Shown one piece after another: positions 21,634-57,987 of a stretch of 64,000 bases of DNA (positions within the stretch are counted from its first letter, which is position 1; each line of letters opens with the position of its first letter). Both the position numbers and the translations under genes were made by a program. This DNA comes from Gemmiger formicilis (GTDB lineage: Bacteria; Bacillota; Clostridia; Oscillospirales; Ruminococcaceae): assembly GCF_900167555.1 (NCBI RefSeq), contig NZ_FUYF01000001.1, positions 248,001 to 312,000 on the forward strand. Direction: 5' to 3'. The notes under the pieces were generated by a model. It saw only the letters and a list, made by a program, of their open reading frames with translations. It was not told the DNA's origin and ran no database searches.

Positions 21634-21662
21634 TTGTAATCACTCCGTAAATATGGTATACT
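21634..21662 (+). promoter_or_regulatory. Predicted promoter of the radical SAM cassette
   Basis: TTGTAA (21634-21639) and TATACT (21657-21662) with 17-base spacing, 56 bases before the radical SAM start. It is the only clear promoter before the three overlapping genes. Confidence 0.6.
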
Positions 21663-21717: not shown

Positions 21718-23112
21718 ATGAGATATTCAAAACACCTTACCTACGCGGAACGTATGTTCCTGCGGGCGCGGCTGAACCGGGTGCGGCATATCACGCTCGA
21801 CCCGGATGGGCCGGGCGTTGTGCGCATCCATCTTGTGCCCTGCCATAAGCCGGACCGCGAGACGCCGTTCACGGCCATTCTGAATGGGCAGGACATCCTG
21901 CCGCTCAACGTCAGCTGGGCCATTCTGCTGACCAACTTCATCGAGGCTTTAAAGCCCTACACCGGGAAGGAGATACGCCCGGAGGAGTGGAGCGCCATCA
22001 ACGCGCAGGCCGTGGCTGCGACCCGCAAGATTTACCGCAAGACCGAGTACGCGCAGATCGAGAGCGACCTGAAAACGCTTGTGGACTGCCTGTGCACGAT
22101 TGCCCGCGGCGGCGAGCCGCCGCTCTCGATTGAACCGGTCAGTCTGGCCGATTATGCACCGCGGATGGCCGCGCCCCACCGCATGGACCTGATGGTCAGC
22201 TCGATGGTCAAGGACGGCGCGTGGCACTGCAACCAGAAATGCCTGCACTGCTACGCCGCCAACCAGCCGCTTTCCGCCGTGCCGGAGTTGGACACCGACC
22301 AGTGGCTGGCCGTCATTGAAAAATGCCGCAACGCCGGCATTCCGCAGCTGACCTTTACGGGCGGCGAACCGACGCTGCGCCACGATCTGGTCAAGCTCGT
22401 GCAGGCGGCACAGTGGTTTGTCACCCGCCTGAACACCAATGGCCGGATGCTGACCAGCATGATGTGCAAGGACCTGCACGCCGCCAGCCTGGACGCGGTG
22501 CAGATCACGTTCTACTCCGCCGATGCCGACATCCACAACGCGTTGGTCGGCGTGGACGGCTACACCGACACGGTGAACGGCATCAAAAATGCGCTGGCTG
22601 CGGACCTGAACGTCAGCCTGAACACACCGCTTTGCAGCCTGAACAGGGACTACCTGTCGGTGGTCAGGTTCGCGCATGAGCTGGGCGTCCGCTACCTGAC
22701 TTGCAGCGGGCTGATCCCTGCTGGCAATGCCGAAAGCGACGCCAGCCGCGCCGTGCGCCTGACTCCCGCCGAGCTGGAGGATGTACTGCGCCCCGCCATG
22801 GAGTACGCCGCCGCAAACGGCATGGAAATCAACTTTACAAGCCCCGGCTGGCTGCCCGAGGAGACGCTGCGCACGCTGGGCTTTACCCAGATCCCCAGCT
22901 GCGGCGCCTGTCTGTCCAACATGGCCGTGGCGCCGGACGGCACGGTGCTGCCCTGCCAGAGCTGGCTGACCGGCAAGGGACTGGGCAATATGCTGCGCAC
23001 CCCTTGGCCGCGCATCTGGCACAGCGGTGCCTGCCGCGCCATCCGCGGCGAGAGCGCCAAAATGGAGCGCCGCTGCCAGCTGGGGGCCACCCCGATGCAG
23101 GAGGGCTGCTGA
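21718..23112 (+). CDS. Radical SAM/SPASM-type protein, candidate maturase of the adjacent Cys-rich protein
   Basis: A 464-residue radical SAM enzyme. The [4Fe-4S] site is Cys171, Cys175 and Cys178 in CNQKCLHCYA. The SAM-binding TFTGGEPTLR follows at 212-221. A C-terminal cysteine set (Cys395, Cys398, Cys413, Cys439, Cys453, Cys464) with CLSNMAVAPDGTVLPCQSW looks like a SPASM auxiliary-cluster domain, as in peptide-modifying enzymes. Residues 1-140 are a separate domain I do not recognise. Start at 21718 (MRYSKHLTYAERM) fits a GAGGGGA ribosome-binding site. The stop overlaps the next start (TGATG). Its natural substrate candidate is the nine-cysteine tail encoded next. This pairing is inferred. 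Confidence 0.85.
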   Translation: MRYSKHLTYAERMFLRARLNRVRHITLDPDGPGVVRIHLVPCHKPDRETPFTAILNGQDILPLNVSWAILLTNFIEALKPYTGKEIRPEEWSAINAQAVAATRKIYRKTEYAQIESDLKTLVDCLCTIARGGEPPLSIEPVSLADYAPRMAAPHRMDLMVSSMVKDGAWHCNQKCLHCYAANQPLSAVPELDTDQWLAVIEKCRNAGIPQLTFTGGEPTLRHDLVKLVQAAQWFVTRLNTNGRMLTSMMCKDLHAASLDAVQITFYSADADIHNALVGVDGYTDTVNGIKNALAADLNVSLNTPLCSLNRDYLSVVRFAHELGVRYLTCSGLIPAGNAESDASRAVRLTPAELEDVLRPAMEYAAANGMEINFTSPGWLPEETLRTLGFTQIPSCGACLSNMAVAPDGTVLPCQSWLTGKGLGNMLRTPWPRIWHSGACRAIRGESAKMERRCQLGATPMQEGC

Positions 23113-24287
23113 TGAAGATGAACTTTCTGCGCCGGTTGGCGCTTTTGTGCGCGGTGCTGACCTGCGGTATGCTGCTGGCCCTGCCCGCCGCTGCCGCGGA
23201 GGCTGATGCCCCCTATGCCGAGGACGGCGACATGGACTACATCCGCAGCTATGTTGTGACCGTTGACCCGCGGGAGGACGGCTCCGTCGACATCACCTAC
23301 GACATCGACTGGCAGGTCATCGACGGCGATAAGACCGATTATTTGAGCTGGGTCAAGATCGGCCTGGCCAATTCCAGCGTGGACGAGCTGACCCCGCTGA
23401 CCGATACGATCTCTGATTTACAGTACACGAGCGACGGCGGCAGCTACGCCAAGGTCGTGTTCCGTCACCGTTACTACGCGCCCGATGTGGCCGCCGCCAA
23501 CGGCGGGGAGAGCAGCGTACATTTTGCATTCAGCGTGCACCAGAGCCATTTGTTCACAAAAAACGATGACGGTACGGCAAACTTCGCGTTTACACCCGGC
23601 TGGTTCGACGACCTGAGCGTTGAAAATATGCAGGTGCGCTGGCACAATTACGACGGCTTTGTCGCCGATAACACCGGCGTGGACGGCGATTACCTGACCT
23701 GGGATTTCGGCGCGATGGGCCACGGCCAGCAGGCCATGGTGCATGTGACGGTGCCTGTCACGAACGCCGCGGCGTTTGACCCCGGCGCAGCCATGACCAC
23801 CGACGACTATGACAGCGGCGAGGACCTGGACGAGATCATCGGGGTGCTGGCAACGGTGATCGTCATCCTGCTGGCAATTGCCATCATCATCATTGCGATA
23901 GCCTCCCAGTCCCCCGAGTGGGGCGGCGGCTTCGGCAGCGGGATCGACCCCGACGACTGGTTCTGGTACACGAACGGCGTTCACACGATCCGCTGCGCCC
24001 GCTCCGCACCCCCGCCCAGCGGCTACCACCGCACGGACCCGCCGCCGGAGTTCAGGGCGGGCGGCGGCAAGACCCGCGGCGGCGGTGTGAGCCGCCACCA
24101 CAGCAACCATTCCGGCTGTGCCAGCAGCTGTGCCTGCGCGTGTGCGTCCAGCTGCGCGTGTGCCTGCGCCTGTGCAGGCGGCGGGCGCGCCGGGTGCAGC
24201 GTCAAGGATTTTTACACCGTGAAGCTCCCTAAAAAATCTGTAGGGGCCGATGCTTGCATCGGCCCGGAAACCGAGGATAAACGATGA
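23112..24287 (+). CDS. Secreted/membrane protein with nine-cysteine C-terminal tail
   Basis: A 391-residue protein with a signal peptide (1-29, ending PAAAAEA) and an extracellular beta-rich region to about 237 with YYAPDVAAANGG and TPGWFDD. One membrane helix (about 241-265, almost all I/V/A/L) is followed by a cytoplasmic tail rich in Gly/Pro. Cys336, 340, 342, 344, 348, 350, 352, 354 and 362 form a CASSCACACASSCACACA pattern followed by GGGRAGCSVKDFY. Alternating C-A pairs beside a radical SAM/SPASM gene suggest a post-translationally modified region. The last 18 or so residues come from a family D palindrome (24240-24266). The ATG overlaps the previous stop by one base. The ectodomain is perhaps DUF2207-like, not certain. 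Confidence 0.8.
   Translation: MKMNFLRRLALLCAVLTCGMLLALPAAAAEADAPYAEDGDMDYIRSYVVTVDPREDGSVDITYDIDWQVIDGDKTDYLSWVKIGLANSSVDELTPLTDTISDLQYTSDGGSYAKVVFRHRYYAPDVAAANGGESSVHFAFSVHQSHLFTKNDDGTANFAFTPGWFDDLSVENMQVRWHNYDGFVADNTGVDGDYLTWDFGAMGHGQQAMVHVTVPVTNAAAFDPGAAMTTDDYDSGEDLDEIIGVLATVIVILLAIAIIIIAIASQSPEWGGGFGSGIDPDDWFWYTNGVHTIRCARSAPPPSGYHRTDPPPEFRAGGGKTRGGGVSRHHSNHSGCASSCACACASSCACACACAGGGRAGCSVKDFYTVKLPKKSVGADACIGPETEDKR
24240..24266 (+). repeat. Family D palindrome inside the 3' end of the Cys-rich gene
   Basis: TGTAGGGGCCGATGCTTGCA and the following TCGGCCC form the usual palindrome, here translated as SVGADACIGP. The right TAC end is missing. Confidence 0.75.
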
Positions 24288-26338
24288 GCCTGGAAGACCA
24301 ATACGATGCCTGGGTCCGCGGCCTGATGGGCGGCGGCAGGTACGCCGCGACCCCGAAGCAGGCTGAGGACGCCAACGACGCCGTGCAGCAGATGCAGGCC
24401 CAGCTGGACGCCCTGACCGAGGCCCAGAAGCGCCAGACTGCCGCGGGCAGCGCACTGAACGCCGTGCAGAAGGCAGGGGCCGCCACGGCGGAGAGCGTGC
24501 GCAGGATGAGCAGCGAGCTGACGAAGTCGCTCAAGCAGGACGGTCTGCTGGGCGGCACCGTGGCCGCGCCCTCCCCTGCCCCGGCTGTGCCCGCCAAGGC
24601 GGATTTTGCCGGAGTGACCGAAAAGATCAAGGCCCAGGTGCTGGGGCAGGATGCCTTTGTCTCGGCGCTGGTCAAGGCGTTCCGCCGCCCGTTTGTGCTG
24701 GGCACGGCGGACGACACTGCTCACGCCCGCAGCGTGATGCTGCTCTGCGGCCCCAACGGCACGGGCCGCCACTATGCGCTGCAATGCGTGGTGGACGAGC
24801 TGGCCGCCCGCGGTGTGCTGCACAGCGCTGCCGTGGAGACGCTGGATCTGGCGCTCTACCCCGGCCCCGCGCAGGAGAAGCTGTTTTTGCAGGACCTTTA
24901 CGCGGCGCTGCAGTCCGACGCCGAGGTGCTGACCTTTGAGCATTACGAGAGCTGTGCCGCCAACTACCTGAATATGCTGGCGACGCTGGCGATGGACGGT
25001 ACGCTGGCATTGTCGAGCCGGTACGTTTTGCAGCGCGGCATCCTCGTGGATGTCGGCACGGCGCTGGCCCCCGGAGCCATCGGCGAGCTGCAGGCCGGCG
25101 GCAAGTATTTTGTGTTCTACTCCAACAAGGGCGAGACCGCGCTGGCCGATCACTTTGGGGCAAAGTTTGTGGACGCCGTTGCGGGCGACATCTGCCGCAC
25201 CGAGGCGTTCACCCCCGAGGCGCTGGCCGCCGTGGCCGCGCGGGAGCTGAATTATCTGGCCCAGCGCACCCGCAGGCAGTGCGGACTGGCGCTGACCATG
25301 GGCGCAGATGTGCGCGACCTGCTGGCGTCGCAGTACGGCAAGACCAGCGGTATGCAGGCTATGCGCGACTACTGCGAGACAGTCTACCGCGCGATTGCCG
25401 AGTACGTGCTGGATGCCGACGAGACGCCCGCCGACGGCACGCCCGCCGCGCTGACGGCGGAGAACGGCAGGCTGTGCATGGCCGTGAACGGCGGCGACTC
25501 CTTTGACCTGCTGGCGCTGCTGCCCCAGCAGTACCGCGGCGATGTGGACGCGGTGGAGGCTGAGCTGGACGGCATCATCGGTCTGGATGAAATCAAGAGT
25601 TATGTGCGTGACATCGCTAAAAACGTGCAGGCCCAGCAGCGCCGCAAGGCCCAGGGCCTGAAGGTTGCCGAGGTCAACATGCACATGATCTTTACCGGAA
25701 ACCCCGGCACCGGCAAGACGACGATTGCCCGCATACTGGCCAAGTACCTGAAGGCCATCGGTGCACTGCGCGGCGGCCAGCTCGTGGAGGTCACCCGCGC
25801 CGATCTGGTGGGCCGCTATGTCGGCCACACGGCCCCGCTGACGAACTCGGTCATCCAGAGCGCACTGGGCGGCGTGCTGTTCATTGACGAGGCCTACGCC
25901 CTCTACCGCGGCGGTGAGGACAGCTTCGGCCTTGAGGCGATTGACACGCTGGTCAAGGGGATCGAGGACCACCGCGACGACCTCGTCGTGATTCTGGCGG
26001 GCTACACGAAGGAGATGCAGCTGTTTTTGAGCGCGAACTCCGGCCTGGCCAGCCGTTTCCCGAATCAGATCGAGTTCCCGGACTACACGGGCGCGGAGCT
26101 GTATAAGATTCTGTGCTCGATTGCAAGATCCAAGGGCTACACGCTGGACGCTGCCTGTGAGCTGCCGCTGGTCACCTACTTTGACCGCAAGCAGGCCGAG
26201 GACGCCGCCACGAACGGCAACGGACGCATGGCCCGCAACACGCTGGAAAAGGCCATTCTGAACCAGTCCAAGCGGCTTGTTGCCGACCCGGACGCAAGCC
26301 TGGAACTGCTGGTAGTTGGGGATTTTGAGCTGGAGTAA
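24284..26338 (+). CDS. Double-AAA ATPase with C-terminal CbxX/CfqX (SpoVK-like) module
   Basis: A 684-residue protein. Residues 25-85 are helical and likely coiled. A first AAA-like module has GPNGTGRH at 156-163, in which the Walker A Lys and Thr are replaced by Arg and His, so it is probably inactive. The second module (about 425-684) is a canonical CbxX/CfqX AAA: GNPGTGKTT at 472-480, Walker B VLFIDEA at 531-537, then AGYTKEM and an arginine in LASRFPNQIEF. Its ATG overlaps the previous stop by four bases, so it belongs to the radical SAM/Cys-rich cassette. A remodelling or delivery role for the Cys-rich membrane protein is inference. Confidence 0.87.
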   Translation: MSLEDQYDAWVRGLMGGGRYAATPKQAEDANDAVQQMQAQLDALTEAQKRQTAAGSALNAVQKAGAATAESVRRMSSELTKSLKQDGLLGGTVAAPSPAPAVPAKADFAGVTEKIKAQVLGQDAFVSALVKAFRRPFVLGTADDTAHARSVMLLCGPNGTGRHYALQCVVDELAARGVLHSAAVETLDLALYPGPAQEKLFLQDLYAALQSDAEVLTFEHYESCAANYLNMLATLAMDGTLALSSRYVLQRGILVDVGTALAPGAIGELQAGGKYFVFYSNKGETALADHFGAKFVDAVAGDICRTEAFTPEALAAVAARELNYLAQRTRRQCGLALTMGADVRDLLASQYGKTSGMQAMRDYCETVYRAIAEYVLDADETPADGTPAALTAENGRLCMAVNGGDSFDLLALLPQQYRGDVDAVEAELDGIIGLDEIKSYVRDIAKNVQAQQRRKAQGLKVAEVNMHMIFTGNPGTGKTTIARILAKYLKAIGALRGGQLVEVTRADLVGRYVGHTAPLTNSVIQSALGGVLFIDEAYALYRGGEDSFGLEAIDTLVKGIEDHRDDLVVILAGYTKEMQLFLSANSGLASRFPNQIEFPDYTGAELYKILCSIARSKGYTLDAACELPLVTYFDRKQAEDAATNGNGRMARNTLEKAILNQSKRLVADPDASLELLVVGDFELE

Positions 26339-36014: not shown

Positions 36015-36303
36015 AGAGGGGCAAAGGATAAAACAAAACAGGCTTTGCCCCCTGTATTCCAAGAGACAAAGCCTGTGTATAGCTCTGCGGTACCACTCTT
36101 ATTGGGGCAGTGCCCCCACCTCATGGGCCTCCAACAAGGCCCGGCACTGTAACGGGTGCGCCCGTACCGCCCTACTGTGATTTCGGACGGTCTGCTCCGG
36201 AATCAGTTCGCGGTCTGCTGCCCTGCTGCCTTGCACCAACCGGCAGCTCTCTGCAGGGTGCGGGACCGTTACTAACTTCCCATCCACGCATTGTCTGAAT
36301 GTG
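36015..36303 (-). promoter_or_regulatory. T-box riboswitch (tRNA-sensing leader) of ilvBNCD
   Basis: Reading the minus strand: GATGGGAAGTTAGTAACGG and CAGAGAGCTGCCGGTTGGTG are classical stem I elements. AGAGTGGTACCGCAGAGCT (about 36082-36100) is the T-box sequence that pairs with the tRNA acceptor end. A terminator ACAGGCTTTG...CAAAGCCTGTTTTGTTTT (36028-36076) closes the leader. The specifier region reads GCGAACTGATTCCGGAGC. CUG (Leu) or AUU (Ile) are both possible without folding it. The downstream genes fit a branched-chain tRNA. Confidence 0.93.
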
Positions 36304-53273: not shown

Positions 53274-53360
53274 CTTTGCAGGGGCGGACAGTATTTGCCC
53301 GCGGAGCCTTCCGGCTGCCGCAAGGCTGGCGGGCCGATGCGAGCATCGGCCCCTACAGGT
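53274..53360. repeat. Family D pair in the leader of the threonine aldolase gene
   Basis: CAGGGGCGGACAGTATTTGC (degenerate) and GGGCCGATGCGAGCATCGGC with CCCCTACA end. Confidence 0.65.
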
Positions 53361-57856: not shown

Positions 57857-57871
57857 AGGTTTGGACATAAA

Positions 57872-57976
57872 AACAGGGGCGCTGAGGGGCATCCTCGGCT
57901 GAGATCGAAACAAACCGCAGTTTCGGGTCGCCTTGAACCTGATCCGGGCAATGCCGGCGTAGGAAGTTTGACCCAA
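57872..57976 (+). promoter_or_regulatory. TPP riboswitch (THI element)
   Basis: The conserved order is present: CAGGGGCGCTGAGGGGC, GGCTGAGATCG, a P3a stem AAACCGCAGTTT, CCTTGAACCTGATCCGGGC and AATGCCGGCGTAGGAAG. Thiamine pyrophosphate binding should favour the terminator hairpin that follows and shut off thiT. Confidence 0.95.
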
Positions 57977-57987
57977 CACGTCATAAC

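Follow-up and report, generated by a model that had tools for sequence, protein, structure and literature searches.

A radical SAM/SPASM enzyme and an adjacent membrane protein with a cysteine-alanine tail form a candidate enzyme-substrate pair in Clostridia

In a 64,000-nucleotide stretch of a Gemmiger formicilis genome (contig NZ_FUYF01000001.1, positions 248,001 to 312,000; hereafter the window, its genome being labelled G000), three forward-strand genes follow one another with overlapping ends: gene 1 (P0001, 21718-23112), a radical S-adenosylmethionine (SAM)/SPASM enzyme of 464 amino acids, gene 2 (P0002, 23112-24287), a membrane protein of 391 amino acids with a Cys-Ala tail, and gene 3 (P0003, 24284-26338), a double-AAA ATPase. 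The core of the locus is genes 1 and 2. We establish the pairing of these two genes across genomes, the conservation of the tail and, by charge, the side of the membrane on which it lies. The two appear to be an enzyme not yet described and its own dedicated target. We consider it probable that gene 2 encodes a dedicated protein substrate of gene 1, a full-size membrane protein whose tail the enzyme would modify, with cysteine as the probable site. That the Cys-Ala tail is what the enzyme acts upon is, in our judgement, very likely, and the likeliest product, a set of Cys-based thioether cross-links, stands at about an even chance.

A scan of named genomes returned at least 463 stretches with a relative of the enzyme (E-value ≤1e-3), not all of which need belong to the subfamily, since one of the two patterns used picks up radical SAM proteins in general; the best 80, at 49-90% identity, were kept. 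These loci come from Gemmiger, Fournierella, Oscillospiraceae, Lachnospiraceae, Pseudobutyrivibrio, Acetatifactor and unnamed Clostridia. Among named relatives, the one closest to gene 1 (90%) is from Gemmiger formicilis, and two of the bins are named Saccharibacteria (L158) and Cacconaster (L128). The tail gene was seen in 76 of the 80 loci, downstream of the enzyme in 75 and upstream in one, and the gap between the two genes is -11 to +33 nucleotides in 71 of the 76. Four loci (L131, L150, L153 and L175) have gaps of 518-768 nucleotides; in these a stop or shift disrupts the gene, so that the tail frame starts late, and the N-terminal part of the partner adjoins the enzyme. One contig (L168) ends inside the tail, which is therefore visible in 77 of 80 loci when this one is counted, and three others (L129, L130 and L135) end inside the partner gene. 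Taken together, the partner, mostly 306-451 amino acids in size, adjoins the enzyme in 80 of the 80 closest named loci. Pairing of the enzyme with some other peptide, which the earlier note on this DNA had named as a way for the idea to fail, was not found among them. Flanks of up to 5 kb hold, as judged from the members listed and with antisense frames over genes 1 and 2 disregarded, no further neighbour family shared by more than 12 of the 80 loci.

The same association is seen in samples drawn by taxonomy. Within the genus, the gene 2 query matches 31 of 35 genomes, and orthologues of gene 1 (E<1e-200) are encoded by the same 31; within the family it matches 7 of 197 genomes, with the enzyme directly ahead of the tail gene in all seven. 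Among 391 genomes sampled from the class, the tail-protein profile is clear in 11 genomes belonging to eight families, and the enzyme profile (E<1e-50) is detected in the same 11. Tail homologues lacking a neighbouring radical SAM gene, the other way of failing named in advance, are thus absent from this sample (enzyme present in 11 of 11 tail genomes). Nine of the 20 class enzyme hits were set aside as generic (E 6.5e-41 to 5.8e-46, covering only query positions ~169-454), and none of their genomes is among the tail-profile hits. Of the 16 genomes with class tail hits, five, with matches confined to query positions 5-80 (E 4e-5 to 7e-4), were discounted as DUF2207-like, and one of the five (G273) also matches PF09972. 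The tail was detected at E≤1e-5 in all 59 genomes chosen for carrying the module, once in 56 and twice in three. Across the phylum, a tail-only profile matches 9 of 398 genomes at E≤0.01; only the window's own genome matches strongly (2.8e-16), and the other eight (3.5e-4 to 8.8e-3) may carry a stray tail without the enzyme.

Several loci depart from the usual arrangement. Two tail genes, or a tail gene ahead of the enzyme, are found in some genomes (L109, 7782-9706; L171, 38-1327; L165, 4040-4987), and in L171 the second copy lies on the opposite strand just upstream of the enzyme. In-frame stops or shifts, from decay or sequencing error, interrupt the tail genes of L131, L150, L153 and L175 and the enzyme genes of G462 and G543. 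Carriage by a mobile element was considered and rejected: no plasmid record reaches 80% coverage of gene 1 (a single partial hit, 31.6%), and the single hit in the phage collection is an unverified, unannotated faecal contig. This 7.4-kb record from human faeces, filed as 'Bacteriophage sp.' (L205, MT837216.1), has gene 1 at 100% identity and is probably a misfiled piece of a chromosome.

Within the partner protein, conservation is highest in the tail. It comprises the nine Cys counted in the earlier note, at residues 336 to 362 of gene 2 (24117-24197, forward strand), ends in GGGRAGC, is nearly invariant in the 76 named relatives and is the proposed site of modification. The 76 tails were selected by the pattern CxCxC...GRxGC and aligned on GRxGC, so the conservation of those Cys and of the GR-GC letters is conditioned by the selection; in all 76, Ala follows each of the last three tail Cys. 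Ahead of GRAGC, every one of 545 repeat Cys is followed by Ala (517) or Val (28), compared with 25 of 300 control Cys located more than 60 residues ahead of the motif in the same proteins. The residue ahead of the repeat Cys varies (Ala 357, Ser 151, Gly 27, and others), as does the spacing between Cys (2, 3, 4 or 5). All four Ala codons and both Cys codons are used at the positions counted, and this varied codon use argues for selection on the protein and not for a young DNA repeat. In two paralogue pairs, identity before the tail is 115 of 251 residues (46%) and 209 of 368 (57%), versus 23 of 25 and 24 of 25 within it.

Directly after the repeat stands a short follower, SVKDF (24198-24212, forward strand), that is conserved in the named relatives (Ser/Thr in 75 of 75, Lys in 75, Asp/Asn in 74, Phe in 69 and Tyr in 69) and is a possible recognition element. 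Three genomes, G462 (L077), G543 (L078) and G534 (L079), have a second type of tail, in which the same Cys-Ala repeat is succeeded by the end GRVGCSERGYQVLHWL, the follower SVKDF being swapped for SERGYQVLHWL. Their enzymes are divergent; those of G534 and G543, the two of the three included in the enzyme tree, form its most distant branch with 100% support in the Shimodaira-Hasegawa-like approximate likelihood ratio test. A repeat that stays constant while the follower changes with the enzyme would fit recognition of the follower by the enzyme, with the reaction taking place on the repeat, as far as three cases suggest. The earlier note had let the protein end at GGGRAGCSVKDFY, which is incorrect, as 23 further residues follow. 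Of these, the final 15 fall within or beyond a palindromic repeat resembling repetitive extragenic palindromes (TGTAGGGGCCGATGC...GCATCGGCCC, 24239-24265, forward strand), which has a second copy at 53331-53357 (two copies in the window, none expected). The C-terminus is here unlike that of the nearest relatives; in the nearest of them (L009) the partner ends KLPKKEELP.

Gene 1 has the radical SAM core motif and the cysteines of a C-terminal SPASM/twitch auxiliary-cluster region. Pfam finds Radical_SAM (PF04055, E 2.4e-17) and SPASM (PF13186, E 4e-08), and names only general radical SAM, SPASM and 4Fe-4S domains. The CNQKCLHC motif reported earlier is located at residues 171-178 (CX3CX2C), and its three cysteines (C171, C175 and C178) are kept in 40 of 40 aligned relatives. 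A six-Cys SPASM-like tail had also been described; five of the six are conserved (C395 in 40 relatives, C398 in 39, C413 in 40, C439 in 37 and C453 in 40), but C464 is found in only four, and two further cysteines, C329 (40 of 40) and C306 (38 of 40), are conserved outside this set. The predicted structure is confident (predicted local distance difference test 89.7, predicted template-modelling (TM) score 0.88). A Foldseek search with it returned SkfB first (2.4e-16) and SuiB second, with BlsE, CteB, PqqE and TigE within the top 12 and anSME, MoaA and viperin as further neighbours. The TM-scores of these matches are 0.45-0.56 (~0.5 by query) with large root-mean-square deviations, as expected if the placement of the domains differs. 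In PADLOC, gene 1 matches viperin models (6.5e-15) over part of the radical SAM core, gene 3 matches IetA (7.7e-09) and TRIP13 (1.6e-06) models over part of the AAA core, and gene 2 has no match.

The N-terminal domain of gene 1 spans 150 residues (feature at 21784-22167, forward strand) and is modelled as a helix (residues 9-18), four short strands (within 23-63) and four helices (within 65-149). The recognition element (RRE) of enzymes acting on ribosomally synthesised and post-translationally modified peptides (RiPPs) has a comparable order, and that of SkfB is described as three strands with four helices after them (PMC6231123). The predicted order in gene 1 may therefore reflect a similar peptide-binding domain, which we keep as a hypothesis because sequence comparisons give it no backing: none of the 12 Protein Data Bank sequence matches of this region (E≤10) is an RRE protein, the best (0.025) being a ribosomal protein. 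Over its full length, the gene 1 family aligns with SCIFF maturases in hhalign (98.5%), along residues 145-427 only, that is, the core and part of SPASM. Gene 1 does not reach the cut-off of the SCIFF maturase model TIGR03974 (425 bits; its best NCBIfam score against any model is 93 bits), and the SCIFF maturase of the same genome, which matches TIGR03974, is a separate gene (G000:C65).

As the earlier note had it, gene 2 is a membrane protein with a signal-peptide-like start and one helix: the model has an N-terminal hydrophobic helix, a confident beta ectodomain and a single membrane helix at residues 238-264. Among the 71 partner proteins of at least 280 residues, 70 have the N-terminal hydrophobic segment, and charges are distributed unevenly around the membrane helix, with on average 2.4 Lys+Arg per 15 residues after it versus 0.97 before, and 0.7 Asp+Glu versus 3.6. 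By the positive-inside rule, this bias places the Cys-Ala tail in the cytosol, on the same side as the enzyme, and the beta domain is predicted to be outside. In L049, L104, L105 and L113, a zinc-ribbon-like CxxC...CxxC segment is found between the helix and the Cys-Ala tail.

No Pfam domain and no NCBIfam model above its cut-off was found in gene 2. DUF2207 (PF09972) matches 22 of 44 relatives at E≤0.1 (best 8.8e-06) but not gene 2 itself, the similarity being to the start of the outer domain, and the comparison of the gene 2 family with the DUF2207 profile is weak (hhalign 51.6%, E 1.5e-4, 29 columns). DUF2207 was detected at E≤1e-10 in 13 of 60 sampled genomes, the window's own genome not among them. 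At the DUF2207 loci, nine of 15 frames picked have Gly-rich ends, their last 60 residues containing 0 or 1 Cys; the remaining six picks are evidently other frames. The gene 2 family thus seems to be a DUF2207-like protein with a Cys-Ala tail in place of the Gly-rich one. In Streptococcus mutans, a DUF2207 protein is reported to influence biofilm as well as the tolerance of acid and peroxide (PMC10457818), which is no more than a hint to the role of gene 2. A catalytic ectodomain was considered and rejected: Foldseek returned M1 aminopeptidase-type and oligosaccharyltransferase chains (E ~1e-06 to 2e-05, TM-score 0.25-0.35 by query), which we take as a shared beta-sandwich.

Several observations weigh against enzyme and substrate as the reading of genes 1 and 2. 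The 80 named loci are the closest of at least 463, and the counts made on them cover the closest relatives only; adjacency alone would equally suit a cofactor or regulatory link. No NCBIfam model, and hence no equivalog that would name the reaction, scores gene 1 above its cut-off (the best is NirJ2, 93 bits against a cut-off of 500). Its sequence neighbours in NCBIfam include the heme enzymes NirJ2 and AhbD as well as PqqE and MoaA, and its structural neighbours are similarly mixed (BlsE, PqqE, anSME, MoaA and viperin), so neither set reveals the reaction. PqqD is touched by only 2 of 38 N-terminal domains in the Pfam scan, and weakly (best E 0.078), and the gene 1 N-terminus gives 0.4% in hhalign with the RRE region of 15 SCIFF maturases. 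Finally, model confidence is low in the tail (block means of 33-40 from residue 321), the shape of which is therefore not predicted.

How else might the pairing be explained? The two genes could be chance neighbours, an ordinary radical SAM gene beside a low-complexity membrane protein, and the patchy spread of the module (11 of 391 class genomes) would agree with this; full co-occurrence across eight families and adjacency in 80 of 80 named loci refute it, and its probability is negligible. A more serious proposal is that the tail is an unmodified strip (CxCxCxC) binding metal or Fe-S clusters, for which the enzyme would be a client or donor, or through which it would sense, with no covalent change. 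Alternating Cys generally suit metal binding, cluster-type cysteines of the enzyme (C171, C175, C178, C329, C395, C413 and C453) are kept in 40 of 40 relatives, and the zinc-ribbon-like segment ahead of the tail in some relatives (L049, L104, L105 and L113, and Pfam matches in 2 of 44) points in the same direction. Metal binding, however, needs neither an Ala or Val after each Cys (545 of 545), nor the invariant non-Cys follower GRAGC(S/T)xK(D/N)F, nor a radical SAM enzyme in every sampled tail genome (11 of 11), and we regard it as unlikely.

Modification of the tail by a different radical SAM reaction, such as epimerisation of alternating residues, C-C or C-O cross-links, or conversion of Cys to formylglycine, has a somewhat better claim, although we doubt it. 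The alternating pattern would also suit a chemistry that acts on every second residue, and the structural matches of the enzyme include SuiB, which performs C-C chemistry, and anSME, which performs formylglycine chemistry. Radical SAM epimerases attack Calpha, like sactisynthases, according to a review (PMC8326336). An epimerase, however, would not require Cys at every other site, and the spacing of the Cys varies (2, 3, 4 or 5) while Cys-Ala/Val stays constant, which argues that a Cys with its next residue is the unit. The pair could instead make a released peptide, with the tail as a RiPP core that a later cut frees from its membrane protein. The architecture of the enzyme is like that of RiPP maturases, and a Gly-rich stretch ahead of the Cys tail could offer a protease site; but flanks of up to 5 kb hold, among the members listed and antisense frames aside, no other neighbour family in more than 12 of the 80 loci, and a conserved stretch after the repeat with a large ectodomain before it would be unusual for a precursor peptide. 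This makes a released peptide improbable.

We therefore favour an enzyme that modifies the tail of its membrane-protein partner. The earlier suggestion of a radical SAM enzyme acting on a cytoplasmic Cys tail is partly supported: both pairing tests (11 of 11 and 80 of 80) and the charge bias agree with it. From these data we infer the binding, the reaction, the product and the role of the AAA protein as follows. The gene 2 protein would be inserted by its signal sequence and anchored by its one helix, with the beta domain outside and the Cys-Ala tail inside. The enzyme would bind the tail, perhaps via its N-terminal domain and the conserved (S/T)xK(D/N)FY follower, and would modify successive Cys-Ala/Val units by the 5'-deoxyadenosyl-radical chemistry of its superfamily. 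The mature tail may then form a stiff cap, poor in thiols, on a surface protein connected with stress or the envelope, and the AAA ATPase, added in Gemmiger, Fournierella and near kin, might handle or extract the tail protein. More tentatively still, and at less than even odds, this may be a new class of post-translational modification, in which a cytosolic tandem Cys-Ala(/Val) strip of an integral membrane protein is converted into a series of cross-links derived from Cys, such as a small thioether ring at each Cys-Ala unit. The resulting tail, non-canonical, polymer-like and tethered to the membrane, would act as a structural or redox/metal element, in contrast to a secreted peptide, and would occur widely among Clostridia of the gut and rumen.

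Gene 3 is an accessory of Gemmiger, Fournierella and near kin. The frames do overlap as described earlier, by one base between genes 1 and 2 and by four between genes 2 and 3, yet the three-gene cassette is a feature of this lineage and the module itself has two genes: of the 80 closest named loci, some of which end before the third gene position, 12 have an AAA gene close by, and its presence requires two changes on the enzyme tree of 51 rows, leaving out five rows in which the contig ends too soon. Of the AAA pair proposed for gene 3, the C-terminal domain is strong (SpoVK model TIGR02881, E 1.6e-89, 299 bits versus a cut-off of 423), whereas the N-terminal half has weak Torsin/ClpV-like matches (E ~0.001). 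The single promoter proposed for the cassette has a counterpart in TTGTAA-17-TATACT at 21634-21662 (forward strand; 9 of 12 positions, with TG ahead of the second hexamer); this is no more than a consensus match, and a second such site lies within gene 2 at 23620-23648 (two observed in the region versus 0.9 expected from shuffles). Elsewhere in the window there are a T-box leader (36059-36295, reverse strand) and a thiamine pyrophosphate riboswitch (57865-57982, forward strand).

What sets the pair apart is the candidate substrate, a large membrane protein with a cytosolic Cys-Ala strip. The targets known for radical SAM/SPASM maturases are for the most part small peptides, along with a few enzyme subunits. 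In the 80 named members compared, this unnamed enzyme subfamily keeps to a single kind of partner, a membrane protein best conserved in its Cys-Ala tail. Should the tail be modified, common gut bacteria (Gemmiger, Fournierella, Lachnospiraceae) would be using radical chemistry to reshape a membrane protein at its inner end. The compact two-gene system, in which repeat number, spacing and follower could be altered at will, would also help to learn how such enzymes read their substrates. The earlier note knew of no described system with this composition; that stands as far as Pfam, NCBIfam and a partial search of the open-access literature reach, in which no such enzyme/tail pair was found, subscription papers and preprints being outside its scope.

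Parts of the locus nevertheless resemble known systems. The C-terminal AAA domain and lid of gene 3 are like those of the SpoVK/CbbX/EccA ATPases, but gene 3 is under the cut-off of each of these models and has an extra, weakly AAA-like N-terminal region. DUF2207 proteins share a similar start of the outer domain with 22 of 44 relatives of gene 2, but nine of the 15 frames picked at their loci have Gly-rich ends with 0 or 1 Cys instead of the Cys-Ala tail. The model TIGR04133 ('rSAM_w_lipo') also describes a radical SAM/SPASM family and points by its name to a lipoprotein, and hence membrane-anchored, partner. Gene 1 scores 64.7 bits against this model, however, compared with a cut-off of 425, and no NCBIfam lipoprotein-partner model matches gene 2 or any of 43 relatives at E≤0.1.

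Similar in architecture are the sactisynthases and other RiPP maturases (SkfB, CteB/SCIFF, SuiB, TigE), which are among the top structural matches of gene 1 and likewise combine a radical SAM core, a C-terminal SPASM/twitch region and an N-terminus of strands followed by helices (predicted for gene 1), with a Cys-rich substrate candidate encoded next to the enzyme. The sequence comparisons gave no match of the gene 1 N-terminus to an RRE. In sactipeptide and ranthipeptide systems the substrate is a short precursor peptide with a leader and a Cys-rich core, which is absent here, the candidate being a membrane protein of 391 amino acids. A translated protein is also the target of QhpD, a radical SAM enzyme which makes several Cys thioethers in the small gamma subunit of quinohemoprotein amine dehydrogenase, joining Cys to methylene carbons of Asp/Glu (PMC8172795). 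Gene 1 is similarly a radical SAM enzyme with a translated protein as its proposed target, but where QhpD acts on a small enzyme subunit, the target here would be the Cys-Ala tail of a membrane protein.

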